Shown here in pieces: positions 13,246 through 22,475 of a stretch of 64,000 nucleotides of DNA (the first letter of the stretch is position 1; every line of letters begins with the position of its first letter). Origin of the DNA: Massilia niastensis DSM 21313 (lineage in GTDB: Bacteria > Pseudomonadota > Gammaproteobacteria > Burkholderiales > Burkholderiaceae_D); the NCBI RefSeq assembly GCF_000382345.1, contig NZ_KB908111.1, forward strand, positions 1 through 64,000. The letters are read 5' to 3'. Made by a program: the position numbers and the translations under genes. The notes below the pieces were generated by a model. It did no database searches and was not told where the DNA came from. It saw only the letters and a list, made by a program, of their open reading frames with translations.

Positions 13246-13406
13246 TGGGTCACTTGGCAACAGATCGGGGCATAAAAGCGCTTCTTCTTGCGCCAGGCGT
13301 TGTTGCAAATCCTCGCGATAGCCAGCTATCGCTGCGGTTTGCGCCTGGCCTGGCGCAAAAATCCATCGCTTTTATTGGCCACTCCCGTTGCCAAGTGACC
13401 CACTAG
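13242..13406. mobile_element. MITE-like palindromic element with CTAG duplication
   Basis: The termini TGGGTCACTTGGCAAC (13246-13261) and their exact reverse complement (13387-13402) are each flanked by CTAG (13242-13245 and 13403-13406), which fits a 4-bp target duplication. The interior has further dyads: TTGCGCCAGGC/GCCTGGCGCAA and GCGATAGC/GCTATCGC. There is no coding capacity. Both neighbouring convergent genes end on the TAG within these CTAGs, so the insertion broke neither gene. Confidence 0.65.
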
Positions 13407-14653
13407 GCGGCCTTGGCCTGTTCCTTCTCGTGGTGGGGGAAGCGGTCCATCTTCGACAGCACCGGGAACAGCACCGCCCACAGCCCGGTGACGGCCAGGG
13501 TCGCGGCGCCGCCCAGCAGGATCGAGCGCACCAGTCCCAGCCAGCCGGCGGTCACGCCCGACTCGAATTCGCCCAGCTCGTTGGAGGCGCCGATGAAGAC
13601 CGAATTGACGGCGCTGACGCGGCCGCGGATCTCGTCCGGGGTCTCGTACTGTACCAGCAGGTGGCGGATGTAGACGCTCACCATGTCGCCCGCGCCGAGC
13701 AGGAACAGGGCGCCCAGCGCCAGCGGGAAGCTGCTGGTCCAGCCCAGCGCCAGGGTGCACAGGCCATACACGGCCACGCCGCCGAACATCCAGGCCCCGA
13801 CCCGGCGCGTGATCGGGAAGAAGGCCAGCGTGATCGAGCACAGGGCCGCGCCGAGGCCCGGCGCGGTGCGCAGCAGGCCCAGGCCGGTGGGGCCGGCGTG
13901 CAGCACGTCGTGCGCATAGGCCGGGAGCATGGCGGTGACGCCGCCGAACAGCACCGCGAACAGGTCGAGCGAGATCGCGCCCAGCACGATGGGCCGCGAC
14001 CACACGAAGCGCAGGCCCTCGAGCAGGCTGTGCCAGCTGACCGGGGCCTTGTTGATGGTCTGCGAGATGCTGCGGGTGCCGGACATGAGCAGCACCGCCA
14101 CCGCCAGCAGGCTGGCCGACATCATGTGCACGGTCTGCGGCCCGAAGGCGTACAGCAGGCCGCCCACGATCGGGCCGGCGATCACGGCCACGTGGAAGCT
14201 CGAGGAGCCCAGGGCGACGGCCTGGCTGAATTCGCGGTCCGACACCAGGTTCTTGAGCACCGCCTGCGAGGCCGGCATCATGAAGGCGCGCGCGCTGCCG
14301 AACAGCACCAGGATCGCGAACACGGGCCAGACCACCTTGCTGCCGCTGGCGGTGAAGGCGATCAGCATGGCGCTGCACAGGAGCTGGGTCGCCATGCACA
14401 GCAGGACGATGATGCGGCGGTTGTAGCGGTCGGCCACGTGGCCCGCCCACAGGATCAGTACCAGGAAGGGCGCGAACTGGGCCAGGCCGATCAGGCCGAG
14501 GTCGAACAGGCTGCCGGTGATCTGGTAGACCTGCCAGCCGATCGCGACGCTCTGCATCTGGATGGCGAGCGTGCCGAGGAAGCGGGCGGAGAGGTAGAAG
14601 GACAGGTTGCGGTTGCGCAGGATGGCCAGGCCGGATGGCGACACCAGGGACAT
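13403..14653 (-). CDS. MFS transporter (EntS/MFS_3-like)
   Basis: A 416-aa inner-membrane permease with 12 predicted helices. The MFS loop motif GHVADRYNRRIIVLL follows helix 2, and a cytoplasmic central loop lies near FVWSRPIVLGAI. The pattern (FLGTLAIQMQSVAIGWQVYQITGS, ARAFMMPASQAVLKNLV) matches the MFS_3/EntS exporters used for siderophores or drugs. The start at 14653 gives MSLVSPSGLAIL just before helix 1; a longer start at 14704 adds 17 unlikely residues. The stop codon lies in the right CTAG of the palindromic element. Substrate unknown. Confidence 0.85.
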   Translation of the reverse strand: MSLVSPSGLAILRNRNLSFYLSARFLGTLAIQMQSVAIGWQVYQITGSLFDLGLIGLAQFAPFLVLILWAGHVADRYNRRIIVLLCMATQLLCSAMLIAFTASGSKVVWPVFAILVLFGSARAFMMPASQAVLKNLVSDREFSQAVALGSSSFHVAVIAGPIVGGLLYAFGPQTVHMMSASLLAVAVLLMSGTRSISQTINKAPVSWHSLLEGLRFVWSRPIVLGAISLDLFAVLFGGVTAMLPAYAHDVLHAGPTGLGLLRTAPGLGAALCSITLAFFPITRRVGAWMFGGVAVYGLCTLALGWTSSFPLALGALFLLGAGDMVSVYIRHLLVQYETPDEIRGRVSAVNSVFIGASNELGEFESGVTAGWLGLVRSILLGGAATLAVTGLWAVLFPVLSKMDRFPHHEKEQAKAA

Positions 14654-14750
14654 GGGAGCTTTCGGGACGATGCGGAGGTGAACTCGACATTGTGCCCGAA
14701 ACAACGACTACCTGCTGGCGGCCATGTTCATGCCGCGGTGGCGCCCAGCC

Positions 14751-17260: not shown

Positions 17261-17518
17261 ATGCCCATCCGCCGACTGCCGCCCGGTGCGGAGTACGACC
17301 CCAACCGCGTCCTCGACGCCATCATTGCCAAACTGCGCCTGAAGAACGACGCCGCGCTGTCGCGCGTGCTCGAAGTGGCGCCGCCGGTGATCAGCAAGAT
17401 CCGCCACAGCGCGCTGCCGATCGGCGCGACGATCCTGTTGCGCATGCATGAAGTGAGCGACTACAGCATCCGCGAACTGCGCGCGCTGATGGTCAAGCCG
17501 GACGGCGCTCCGGCCTGA
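17261..17518 (+). CDS. Small helix-turn-helix-like protein
   Basis: An 85-aa basic protein. The middle (LRLKNDAALSRVLEVAPPVI, then SKIRHSALPIGATILLRMHE) reads like an XRE/Cro-type helix-turn-helix: LKNDAALSRVLEVAPPVISK gives the two helices. The rest is a helical tail (SIRELRAL). This points to a DNA-binding repressor or CI-like regulator, but I do not recognise the family with certainty. It is preceded by 187 bp of AT-rich DNA with a nested dyad, and followed by a strong hairpin shared with the repeat protein on the other strand. Confidence 0.6.
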   Translation: MPIRRLPPGAEYDPNRVLDAIIAKLRLKNDAALSRVLEVAPPVISKIRHSALPIGATILLRMHEVSDYSIRELRALMVKPDGAPA

Positions 17519-17525
17519 AAACGCC

Positions 17526-17566
17526 CGCGGCCGGGGCGGCGGTTCGAGTCCGCCGCGCCGGCCGCG
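17526..17566. terminator. Strong bidirectional hairpin between convergent genes
   Basis: The arms 17526-17542 and 17550-17566 pair over 16 of 17 positions (CGCGGCCGG and GCGGCGG with one G-G mismatch) around a 7-base loop. It lies between the stops of the small helix-turn-helix-like gene and the repeat-protein gene. No T-run on either side. Confidence 0.55.
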
Positions 17567-17580
17567 ACGTCAGGGGACGA

Positions 17581-18258
17581 TCAGGCGGCGGCCAGGGCCT
17601 TGCCGGGGAAGGCGCACCAGGCGCTGGCGCTGCCTTGCGCCAGCGCCTTGCCCGGCGAAGCGCACCAGGCGATGTCGCCGCCTTTGGCCACGGCCTTGCC
17701 CGGCGAGGCGCACCATGCGGCCTCGCTGCCCTTGGCCAGCGCCTTGCCCGGCGAGGCGCACCACGCGGCCTCGCTGCCCTCGACCAGCGCCTTGCCCGGC
17801 GAAGCGCACCAGGCCTCGGCCAGCGACTTGCCCGGGAACGCGCACCATGCTTCCTGACCGGTCGCGGGGATCCCGAACTCGGCCTCGTACAGCGCGCGCA
17901 TGCGCTCGCCCGCGCGCGCCTGTTCGCCTTCGTCGGCCCCGGCGCCGATGCCGACGTACGGGTAGTGGTGCAGGAAGTAGCCGAACGCCTGCTCGCAGTC
18001 GCGCGCGTACTTCATCGTATCCAGGATGTGGTAATGCCAGAAGGTGTCGACGTCGACCGTCGGCGAAGCCTGGGAGTCCGGGTACTTCTTCATCAGGAAC
18101 AGGAAGCGCCGGTACTCGGCTTCCACGGCGGCGGCGCGGACCTCGGACCATCCTTCGCCCGATTCCACATGCATCAGTTTCATCTTGATGGGCGCAAGGT
18201 CCAGCGCTTCGAACGTTTCGAACACTGCAAGCGTTTCAACTTCGGATTTCGTCGACAT
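17581..18258 (-). CDS. GRDP-like protein with six AWCA[S/F]PGK repeats; possible multi-core peptide precursor
   Basis: A 225-aa protein without a signal peptide. Residues 1-130 form a helical domain with TFWHYHILDTMKYARDCEQ (about 72-90), similar to the glycine-rich-domain-protein-like family (DUF1399 type). Residues 137-220 hold six copies of AWCA[S/F]PGK at 137, 149, 165, 181, 197 and 213, the last five with an exact 16-residue period. Each copy has one Trp-Cys pair, and a Gly-rich/acidic spacer separates them. The layout (folded leader, then tandem identical cores) resembles multi-core RiPP precursors, but no modifying enzyme is adjacent. AGAGGTG before the ATG at 18258 fixes the start. 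The histidine kinase gene lies 246 bp upstream on the same strand. Confidence 0.75.
   Translation of the reverse strand: MSTKSEVETLAVFETFEALDLAPIKMKLMHVESGEGWSEVRAAAVEAEYRRFLFLMKKYPDSQASPTVDVDTFWHYHILDTMKYARDCEQAFGYFLHHYPYVGIGAGADEGEQARAGERMRALYEAEFGIPATGQEAWCAFPGKSLAEAWCASPGKALVEGSEAAWCASPGKALAKGSEAAWCASPGKAVAKGGDIAWCASPGKALAQGSASAWCAFPGKALAAA
17599..17850 (-). repeat. Tandem coding repeat, 48-bp unit
   Basis: The six AWCA[S/F]PGK units are nearly identical also at DNA level (GCCTTGCCCGGCGA(A/G)GCGCA on the plus strand recurs), with a 48-bp period over the last five. The low number of silent differences suggests recent expansion or recombination between units. Confidence 0.85.
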
Positions 18259-18504
18259 CGTATTCACCTCTTGTCTGGAGTTTGTGGGGGTGGTGCATGG
18301 CATCCCTGGTTCTGTCCTGCTCGATACCTTACGGTTGGTCCTCCTGCATGAAGCGGATCACGGCCCGATCGAAGACGGTGTCCTTGACCGGTGACAGCGA
18401 TATCCATTTTCCTGTGTATGGTCAGGAGAAATGTTGAGTTTGCTCAAGCAATAACAGGTGTTATTTTTTAATTACAAATGCTTGAGGGTAATTTAGAGGA
18501 GGTC

Positions 18505-20358
18505 TCAGGCTGCTTCGGGGACGCTGGCCGTCCGCTCGGCCTGCGCGGCGGGCAAGCTGCCGGTGAAGGGGATGGTGACGACGATCGTGGTGCCGGTGTC
18601 GGGGCCGCTGCTGAGCGAGAACGAGCCGCCCAGGATGCCGACCCTTTCCTCGATGCCGACCAGGCCGAAGGAGCCGTTGCGGTTGCGGCTGCCCGGCAGC
18701 ATGCCGACGCCGTTGTCGCGGATGGTCATGGTCAGCATGTCGGCATGCTGGCGCAGGTCGATCCAGGCCCGCGTCGCATGCGCATGGCGGGCGACGTTGT
18801 TCAGCGACTCCTGCAGGATGCGGAAGAAGGCGGTGGCGCAATGGTCGTCGATGCGGTAGTCGCCGTCGTCGTCGACCAGCTCGCAGGCGATGCCGGTGCG
18901 GCGCGCGAAGTCGGCCACCTGCCAGTCCACCGCCGCGCTCAGTCCCAGGTCCAGCACGTTCGGGCGCAGGTCGTTGATGATCTGGCGCACGCTGCGGATC
19001 GTGATGTCGATCTGGCGCACCGTGGCCTCGGCGCGCGCGTGCAGGCGGCGGTGCGGGCCGCGGGTGCGGTTGGCCAGGAACTCGGCCTCGATCTTCAGCG
19101 CCAGCAGGTTCTGCGCCAGGTCGTCGTGGATCTCGCGCGCGATGCGCTTGCGCTCGCCCTCCTTGATCTGCTCGGCGTGCGCGGCCAGCAGCCGCAGCTT
19201 CTCGTGGCTGGCCTGCAGCTTGGACTGGCTGGCGCGCAGCTCGCGCGTCATCTCCTCGGCCATGCGCAGCGCATTGCGGCGCGACGAGGCCATGGTCTGG
19301 AACAGCGCATACAGCAGGGCGGTGCTCATCGCGCCGGCGAACGCCGCCAGCCACGGGTAGTACATGTCGAAGCTGGTGTACAGGGCCGACTTGGCGATGC
19401 TGAAATCGGCGCGCCAGAGGCGCTGGTTGAACTCGATCGGCAGGCTGGCGGCGAACATGCTGCCGTCGCCCGCCTGCGGCGGCGGCGGGGCGGGGCGGGA
19501 CGCGCTGGCCAGGCTGTCGTACAGGACCGCGCGCGGCGGCTCCTCGCCCGGCTCGGGCGGCACTTCGGTGAGGTCGGTCAGCACCAGGCGCGCGCCCTTG
19601 ACCGGGAATTCGTCCAGCACCCCGCTCACCAGCCTGGCCACGCCGAAGCCGATGCCGACCGAGCCCACGTAGGCCAGGCGCCGCTCTTCGGGCGTCGCGG
19701 CGGGCAGGCCGCTGCGGTAGACCGGCAGGCGCAGCGCCAGTCCGCTCTGGTTCGGCCCGGGCAGGAGGGCGACCCGGGTGCCGGATGCGCTCACGCTGTT
19801 GGTGTCGCGCGCACGCGCCAGCACCCGGCGCGTATGGCTGCGCGCCTCGAGGTCCATGCCCAGCTTGTCGAGCGAAGGCCGCAGGCGCGGCTCGATGTAG
19901 ACCAGCACCGTGTAGGAGTCGCGTCCCGGCAGCGCCGCCAGCGGCTCGGCGCCATGCGCCAGGCCGAGCGCCCGCATGCGTTCGCGCAGTTCCCGGTCCA
20001 GCGCCGGCAGGCTGGAGGCGGGCACCGCGCGCGCATAGTTGATGACCTGGATGCCGGGGAAGTTGCGCTCGATGTCGAGCTGCTCGACGTAGTGGCGGAA
20101 CTGGTCGGCGCTGGCGTCGGGATCGGCGCGGAACAGGCCGGCGGCGCCGCGCAGCACGTCGCTGTAGCTCTTGATGCGCGCATCGATGGTGTACTGGGCG
20201 GAGCGCGCCATGCTGCGAAAGCGCGTGCGCGCATCGCTCTCGATCGCCTCGGCGGTGGCCAGGTAGCTGCCCGCGCCGAACCCGAGCGACAGCAGCGCTC
20301 CGCTCAGCAAGGTCGCCGGCAAGGCAATCGCGCCGGCGGGATGGCGGGGTGGTTTCAT
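18505..20358 (-). CDS. CHASE-domain sensor histidine kinase (NarL/HisKA_3 type)
   Basis: A 617-aa membrane kinase. Helix 1 (about 10-30) is followed by a periplasmic CHASE domain (about 70-290; FPGIQVINYARAVP), helix 2 (near 320; YPWLAAFAGAMSTALLYALF), a coiled coil and HisKA_3 with the phospho-acceptor His in RKRIAREIHDDLAQNLLAL. The HATPase domain follows (FRILQESLNNVARHAHA; DNGVGM; GSFGLVGIEERV). HisKA_3 kinases normally pair with a NarL/FixJ regulator, but none is adjacent, so it is an orphan here. The CHASE ligand is unknown. It is separated from glnS upstream by a terminator. Confidence 0.88.
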   Translation of the reverse strand: MKPPRHPAGAIALPATLLSGALLSLGFGAGSYLATAEAIESDARTRFRSMARSAQYTIDARIKSYSDVLRGAAGLFRADPDASADQFRHYVEQLDIERNFPGIQVINYARAVPASSLPALDRELRERMRALGLAHGAEPLAALPGRDSYTVLVYIEPRLRPSLDKLGMDLEARSHTRRVLARARDTNSVSASGTRVALLPGPNQSGLALRLPVYRSGLPAATPEERRLAYVGSVGIGFGVARLVSGVLDEFPVKGARLVLTDLTEVPPEPGEEPPRAVLYDSLASASRPAPPPPQAGDGSMFAASLPIEFNQRLWRADFSIAKSALYTSFDMYYPWLAAFAGAMSTALLYALFQTMASSRRNALRMAEEMTRELRASQSKLQASHEKLRLLAAHAEQIKEGERKRIAREIHDDLAQNLLALKIEAEFLANRTRGPHRRLHARAEATVRQIDITIRSVRQIINDLRPNVLDLGLSAAVDWQVADFARRTGIACELVDDDGDYRIDDHCATAFFRILQESLNNVARHAHATRAWIDLRQHADMLTMTIRDNGVGMLPGSRNRNGSFGLVGIEERVGILGGSFSLSSGPDTGTTIVVTIPFTGSLPAAQAERTASVPEAA

Positions 20359-20482
20359 CGTCCTGGTCTCGCGAACTGGCACGTCGTGGCGTACCGATCC
20401 CGCTACGCTAAGCAATGTATTTACCGATGTGCCCTAGCAGGCCTGCTAGGTTTTGCGGAAAAGCAACAGTCATGTGCCAGGC

Positions 20483-20537: not shown

Positions 20538-22292
<1,755 letters not shown>

Positions 22293-22475
22293 GAAAAAGT
22301 GTTTTCGATGGGTAAGTTGCGGGCATTTTACCGTAGACAGGGCCGCTTGGTCCCTTGTATGTGGTGAAGCGCACGGTCCGGCGACACCTGGCGGGACATA
22401 CTTGGGGGCCTCGATGATCCCTTGCAAGGTTCAATGATGCATCCGGCATGCCTGCCACGTAATCGTTTTCTATAG

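Follow-up and report, generated by a model that had tools for sequence, protein, structure and literature searches.

The window analysed here, a stretch of 64,000 nucleotides of Massilia niastensis DSM 21313, carries on its minus strand a gene for a protein with a GRDP-like N-terminal domain and a tail of tandem Trp-Cys units, preceded by a gene for a sensor histidine kinase with a CHASE domain and by a tRNA synthetase gene. The features are as follows.

17581..18258, minus strand: repeat protein gene, GRDP-like N-domain and six-unit tail, 225 amino acids (open reading frame, Pfam, homologues)
17599..17850, minus strand: array of six AWCA[S/F]PGK units with their linkers (pattern search, Tandem Repeats Finder)
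17872..18258, minus strand: GRDP-like N-domain, about 129 amino acids (Pfam PF07173, alignment)
18259..18504, no strand: intergenic DNA from kinase to repeat gene, divergent between the tandem pairs of relatives (promoter scan, DNA identity profile)
18505..20415, minus strand: sensor histidine kinase, TM1-CHASE-TM2-HisKA_3-HATPase_c, 636 amino acids when read from TTG (Pfam, hydropathy)
18562..19155, minus strand: kinase half, HisKA_3 and HATPase_c, residues 421-618, homogenised between the tandem paralogues of relatives (Pfam, identity)
19558..20115, minus strand: CHASE domain, residues 101-286, predicted to be extracytoplasmic (Pfam, hydropathy, structure-sequence match, tandem loci of relatives)
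20538..22427, minus strand: class I tRNA synthetase (E and Q) gene (Pfam, locus comparison)

The AWCA[S/F]PGK cores start at 17828, 17792, 17744, 17696, 17648 and 17600 of the window, with a step of 12 residues (36 bp) from the first to the second unit and a spacing of 16 residues (48 bp) through units 2-6. The six units and the 16-residue period of five of them, as given in the original prediction, are borne out by the open reading frame, the pattern search and these core positions. The prediction had also called the 48-bp DNA units nearly identical; Tandem Repeats Finder recovered the period of 48 (4.7 copies) but with 78% matches, so that this wording was slightly too strong. A degenerate DNA pattern for the core matched six times in the whole 6.59-Mb assembly, every time in this gene, and the same pattern reversed, as a control, had 0 matches there. 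By hydropathy the repeat protein has no hydrophobic segment (best 19-residue Kyte-Doolittle mean 0.85). A scan of window positions 17400-18700 gave no sigma-70-like promoter, PHROGs and PADLOC searches gave no match, and NCBIfam models including TIGR04222 gave no useful match to the window protein or its relatives. A small convergent gene (17261-17515, plus strand, 85 amino acids, no Pfam match) appears by eye DNA-binding-like, and its cluster is present in 38 of the loci compared.

The N-terminal part passes the Pfam GRDP-like model PF07173 with 26 bits against a cut-off of 22.7, over profile positions 98-143 of 143 only; the earlier assignment to GRDP-like proteins thus holds above the gathering cut-off with partial coverage of the profile. 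Comparison of the domain with solved structures gave no match worth noting. Alignment of 68 N-domains, chosen by the pattern W[HR].[HR]I and leaving out L182 and one L142 fragment, has 25 invariant columns, among them W74, H75, H77, D80, T81, D87, C88, H97 and H98. Plant BURP-domain proteins modify or cut their own cores, and the GRDP-like domain might likewise modify or cut the cores to which it is fused by way of its conserved His, Asp and Cys, which could bind metal, and with no external enzyme. We consider this very unlikely as the explanation of the locus, given that the domain has no homologue of known structure, that H77 is Phe in the WHEFI-type relatives and that Arg replaces the first His (H75) in L182 and the L142 fragment.

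Cys-bearing tails behind a GRDP-like domain form a wider theme in several lineages of the phylum. A draw of 349 genomes from the phylum gave 23 matches at E 1e-8, with arrays seen only in the two same-genus genomes; the tails of the other relatives carry 0-2 aromatic-C/S pairs and are mostly Cys-bearing, e.g. GGGCGGCGGD. WHEFI-type GRDP-like membrane proteins of several phylum lineages (such as L284, L290, L293, L296, L104-L109, L186, L187 and L189-L192) mostly end in similar Ser/Gly/Cys-rich tails. Two distant genomes (L276 and L278) encode short GRDP-like proteins with closely similar, non-array Cys/His-rich ends, ACHxPxSCACRxPGACK, and two genomes of the genus have, in addition, another kind of GRDP-like gene (L052:5246-5767 and L053:7566-8087), whose short tail NCWHDCVGRCWHACSSKK likewise contains Trp and Cys.

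The kinase gene lies about 250 bp upstream of the repeat gene, and a start at the Met at residue 20 is likelier than at the TTG. Its product matches CHASE (PF03924, 104.6 bits), HisKA_3 (PF07730) and HATPase_c (PF02518), with TM1 and TM2 recognised by hydropathy, and the sensor matches by sequence the structures 3t4j and 6k62, the latter of which we take to be Xanthomonas PcrK. The original prediction had overlooked this neighbouring CHASE kinase. The two genes occur and duplicate together, and in tandem loci the kinase varies in step with the core of the repeat protein. The usual gene order is tRNA synthetase, kinase, repeat gene; the synthetase, the usual upstream neighbour outside the g63-type lineage, is probably genomic context only. 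A possible lead as an exporter is the MFS transporter encoded at window positions 13406-14707, roughly 3 kb off, which 47 Massilia-type loci retain but which was not seen in g63-type loci. Besides kinase and synthetase, the Pfam-annotated neighbours are DnaJ, the MFS transporter, ferredoxin reductase, epimerase, S30AE, a periplasmic binding protein, GGDEF, an exonuclease and a chemotaxis receptor; no protease, response-regulator receiver or ComQ-like enzyme was found among the Pfam-scanned neighbours, a few conserved ones of which have no Pfam match. In two loci (L060 and L061) a calcineurin-like phosphoesterase, identified by Pfam, and large proteins are inserted between synthetase and kinase.

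Matches to the repeat protein were identified in 66 of the 101 genomes searched (the window's own included), in 60 of 61 same-genus genomes (again with the window's; the exception is G016) and, in a family search, in 121 of 294 genomes at E 0.001 or better, weak WHEFI-type relatives included. Loci were fetched as stretches of 3-20 kb, 71 from matches of the first search and 54 from those of the family search, and 108 of them hold a relative. The genomes share ancestry and are not independent, and the counts below are of genes, not of events.

The tails of the relatives consist of repeated Ala-[W/F/Y]-[C/S] units that vary with lineage, e.g. AWCAAPGK in 24 copies (L043), AFCAGPR in 18 (L041), AYSGRV (L178) and AFCGIV (L154). 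The tails of 136 proteins total 19,111 residues. They contain 886 Cys, of which 857 directly follow W, F or Y, where composition alone would predict 70; the 1,502 tail aromatics have Cys as the next residue in 856 cases and Ser in 309, and Ala precedes the aromatic in 1,225 of about 1,500. Absence of the repeats from close homologues, named in the original prediction as an observation that would speak against it, is not what was found, because 130 of 136 relatives keep at least three units; the other six are fragments, frame-broken, at contig ends, or carry one or two units. Among the 130 arrays, 116 have a single dyad and 14 are mixed, 125 are pure for Cys or Ser and 117 for the aromatic, with a median of 8 and a maximum of 24 units. 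The linkers are variable in length and sequence, unit spacing is mostly 8-24 and no fixed cleavage site was seen; a protease recognising the core itself is a possible arrangement. A C-terminal motif RPx[L/I] within the last 30 residues (e.g. FYSERPRL) occurs in 16/16 proteins of g80, 10/10 of g46, 6/7 of g63 and 8/84 same-genus proteins, is missing from the window protein and may be an export or processing signal.

Adjacent units were compared codon by codon (1,014 comparisons), and around the dyad the differences are mostly synonymous. Position -1 has 45% synonymous and 7% residue-changing differences, position +2 36% and 7%, and position +4 42% and 13%, against 57-60% residue-changing differences in the linker codons -5 to -3. 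The dyad positions 0 and +1 behave alike but are no independent test, because the units were selected by the dyad; that test is provided by -1, +2 and +4. The synonymous excess around the dyad therefore indicates that the core motif is under purifying selection, which acts beside the recent duplication of units.

Two further readings of the tail were weighed against these data. A disordered sticker-and-spacer scaffold, or a surface or structural repeat expressed under control of the kinase, would suit the Ala/Gly/Ser/Pro-rich tails, the interchange of W, F and Y between genes and the arrays of up to 24 units; such a reading is unlikely, since it leaves unexplained the C/S after the aromatic, the pure aromatic of most arrays and the match between core and CHASE in tandem loci described below. 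A Cys repeat acting as a metal or redox sensor (thiol buffer) whose state the kinase reads would agree with Cys being the commonest second residue of the dyad (847 of 1,136 called units), but Ser takes its place through whole arrays in 10/10 proteins of g46 and 13/16 of g80 with the same kinase linkage, and single Cys residues 8-24 residues apart would seem poor chelators; we regard this reading as highly improbable.

A kinase gene lies at most 2.2 kb from 136 of the 140 repeat genes in the 108 loci (some of these genes being fragments), in the same or the opposite orientation. Two of the four repeat genes without a nearby kinase (L101 and L102) are at contig ends, one (L183) is 1.3 kb from a contig end, and L179 is a true lack. 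Among 77 named loci, which largely repeat genomes of the 108-locus set, the kinase is present in 76 and an array of at least three units in 74, and the single one without the kinase starts 570 bases from a contig end. In nine g63-type loci kinase and repeat gene are divergent and the surroundings are different; the pair has therefore been kept together through rearrangement. The g63-type kinase has an extra PAS domain between TM2 and the kinase domains (in L165 and L181, which were scanned). No third gene is consistently common to Massilia-type and g63-type loci, the only further matches being three cross-matches to cluster 31, a diguanylate cyclase. At the level of genomes, the kinase was found at E 1e-100 in 98 of 288 family genomes, of which 97 are positive for the repeat protein; the 98th is G016, where a contig end truncates the kinase, so that absence of the repeat gene is apparent and loss is not inferred. 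The 24 of 121 repeat-protein-positive genomes outside the kinase list are weak WHEFI-type hits, genomes of g63-like lineages whose kinase has diverged further, or genomes that were probably not part of the draw for the kinase search (G019, G365 and G366). Outside the family, the short stretches inspected around relatives for the most part lacked a kinase of this kind.

Kinase and repeat gene also co-duplicate in tandem. The pairing is not always one to one, because repeat genes outnumber kinases in 18 loci (the count for L051 includes broken pieces). One of the pieces in L051 (7072-7558) is a broken extra copy of the repeat gene, neighboured by an intact copy and two kinases. In L150, L172 and L174-L177 a single kinase gene precedes a pair of repeat genes whose cores often differ, which raises the question of two ligands for one receptor, or of an agonist and an antagonist.

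The original prediction took the gene for a possible multi-core RiPP precursor. In the form weighed here, an enzyme from another site in the genome would modify the W/F/Y-C/S dyads and the kinase would only regulate the cluster. Part of this stands: a leader-like domain precedes tandem, homogenised cores whose dyad is strongly conserved, and the account in PMC12452194 proposes, in other families, proteins with Cys-bearing low-complexity tails as MNIO substrates. The prediction was also right that no modifying enzyme lies beside the repeat gene, none being present among the neighbours scanned, nor is there a third gene consistently beside the pair in both kinds of locus. What lacks support is the enzyme elsewhere, for which co-occurrence had been proposed as the check: in a search of two enzyme families only, MNIO is present in 44 of 62 genus genomes (missing in 18) and YcaO in 58 (missing in 4, one of them 83% complete), and neither is required. 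All 18 MNIO-less genomes hold the repeat gene, 17 by the first search and G333 by the family search, its array having been read as well; one of them (G024) has two units only, and another (G042) has a 24-unit array on a single contig. Two MNIO genes of the window's own genome (L193:9390-10555 and L194:9248-11257) adjoin genes for secreted Cys-containing small proteins, which resemble bufferin precursors. A classic RiPP with MNIO or YcaO elsewhere is thus unsupported, the enzymes being missing where the repeat gene is present and Cys being replaced by Ser, and a multi-core RiPP precursor in general appears quite unlikely; a core modified by another enzyme family or by the GRDP domain is possible.

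Ten loci have two or more kinase genes, and a comparison of their copies provides insights into how the parts of the pair diverge. In 14 paralogue pairs from these loci the kinase halves are 92-100% identical and the CHASE halves 51-64%. Between-locus pairs with kinase identity 0.95-1.00 (n=123) have a mean CHASE identity of 0.69 (sd 0.12); the contrast between CHASE and kinase is general and is stronger in the paralogues. Divergence per 20-residue segment is 0.18-0.70 at residues 21-360 and 0.00-0.09 at residues 361-620, with a sharp drop at TM2; the ends of the kinase (1-20 and 621-636) are divergent too. Identity between the paralogues' GRDP N-domains is 83-100% for all but one of 13 pairs, the remaining one (L084, 72%) having a frame-broken copy, and in L039 identical N-domains are followed by different cores, YCAGPR and FCAGPH. 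DNA profiles of seven of the ten loci contain two homogenised islands, the kinase (mostly 90-100%) and the GRDP domain (83-100%), and between them intergenic DNA with 35-69% identity in the 150-nt bin 1951-2100 of the profile. Two islands around divergent intergenic DNA argue for gene conversion keeping the common parts alike, while CHASE, intergenic DNA and tail would be type-specific.

The divergent parts match each other. In all 18 units compared, from eight tandem loci, the core aromatic is that of the unit with the most similar CHASE among the other tandem loci; choosing the closest unit by the kinase gives such agreement in 6/18 and by the N-domain in 9/18 (L051, with its broken copy, and the L084 unit without a core were left out); shuffling labels within loci gave a mean of 7.6 matches, and 18 was reached in 10 of 5,000 shuffles. 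Some CHASE positions fully separate the core classes in these 18 units, e.g. residue 105, which is Q or K in Y-types, R in F-types and N in W-types. A partial Mantel test of core on CHASE, given kinase and N-domain, gave r 0.57 (p 0.001) in tandem loci. Over 111 of the 114 paired units (three without a usable kinase or core were dropped) the CHASE term is weak (r 0.149, p 0.001) and the N-domain reaches p 0.02; over 68 genus units it is not significant (r 0.018, p 0.34), kinase distance being significant instead (r 0.136, p 0.006). Among single-pair loci, CHASE identity is higher for the same dyad than for different dyads in each of five bins of kinase identity, e.g. 0.867 (n=19) against 0.739 (n=10) at kinase identity of at least 0.95. 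In tandem loci, these comparisons indicate, CHASE and core co-diverge against a homogenised kinase and N-domain. Neutral gene conversion limited to the similar parts could leave CHASE and tail divergent with no ligand role and could account for part of the mosaic, though alone it leaves the CHASE-core match in tandem loci unexplained; a regulated precursor alone likewise leaves unexplained that the CHASE half varies with the core.

On this sequence evidence we propose, with moderate confidence, that the two genes form a signal-receptor pair in which the core repeats would be the ligand of the CHASE domain of the neighbouring kinase; most likely the repeats are, or get cut into, that ligand. 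What varies with the core is the kinase's extracytoplasmic half and not its cytosolic one, and the tail or its fragments therefore most likely act outside the cytoplasm. The GRDP-like domain would be the carrier for many copies of one Ala-aromatic-Cys/Ser core, and these would bind the CHASE domain either after release as peptides or while displayed together on a multivalent tail, so that many copies per precursor may yield many released peptides or a multivalent ligand. Any modification or cutting of the cores by the GRDP domain is compatible with the signal-receptor pair and not exclusive of it. Each gene would supply one homogenised core type and its kinase a matching sensor, which would therefore give distinct specificities (pherotypes) in the lineages and tandem paralogues. 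More tentatively, the pair may represent a so far undescribed system of two genes by which Massilia, Duganella, Janthinobacterium and relatives communicate or recognise kin. It would encode up to 24 near-identical signals together with a dedicated CHASE receptor; the units would evolve in concert, and tandem duplication would give rise to new specificities while gene conversion keeps the kinase and carrier halves common. A search of a library of open-access literature found nothing describing this system in bacteria.

Dedicated pairs of peptide signal and receptor kinase are well known in Gram-positive bacteria and, to our knowledge, are little described in Gram-negatives; bacterial CHASE receptors mostly have, as far as we know, no known ligand. 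Here the presumed ligand is encoded beside its receptor, with many natural variants and within-genome tandem paralogues in many genera of one family, and the question of CHASE-kinase ligands thereby becomes directly testable with short synthetic peptides.

Several known systems resemble parts of the pair. The plant GRDP1/2 proteins have the PF07173 domain in common with the window protein and, like it, a low-complexity tail after the domain; they are described as glycine-rich proteins with roles in growth and stress, and the available excerpts of their descriptions mention neither tandem aromatic-Cys cores nor a kinase. The TIGR04222 membrane proteins, proposed MNIO substrates, combine an N-terminal domain with a Cys-bearing low-complexity tail, and the WHEFI-type GRDP relatives are similar to them by eye; unlike them, the window protein has no TIGR04222 match and MNIO is not required, and their tails lack homogenised arrays of dyads. 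Multi-core RiPP precursors also have a leader-like domain followed by repeated cores, but here there is no requirement for MNIO or YcaO, no fixed cleavage site was seen and Cys is replaceable by Ser.

For the receptor, DhkA, AHK4 and Xanthomonas PcrK have, as the window kinase does, a CHASE domain outside the cytoplasm between two transmembrane segments and a kinase after it; unlike in those, the gene of the presumed ligand adjoins the receptor here and co-varies with it. AHK4 and PcrK are cytokinin receptors, and we know of no cytokinin link for this pair. A peptide ligand has a precedent in DhkA of Dictyostelium, which is described as sensing the peptide SDF-2 (PMC1863423, PMC7316887).

In organisation the pair resembles the ComQXPA quorum-sensing loci of Bacillus. 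It is not a member of that family, because no modifying enzyme or adjacent regulator was identified: neither a ComQ-like enzyme nor an adjacent ComA-like regulator was found among the Pfam-scanned neighbours. It also differs in its receptor, which is of CHASE type and not polytopic, in its precursor of a GRDP-like domain and many cores, and in its Gram-negative hosts. According to the account in PMC4008528, variation in ComQXPA falls in the signal-bearing end of ComX and in the sensor region of ComP, and the cytoplasmic domain is conserved; as that system is described, a small precursor gene adjoins the histidine kinase, as it does here, and kinase families PF07730 and PF02518 are present in both. 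Signal part and sensor half are likewise variable and the cytoplasmic kinase conserved in the tandem loci of the present family, more weakly over single loci, and by this analogy the pair would work in the manner of ComQXPA.
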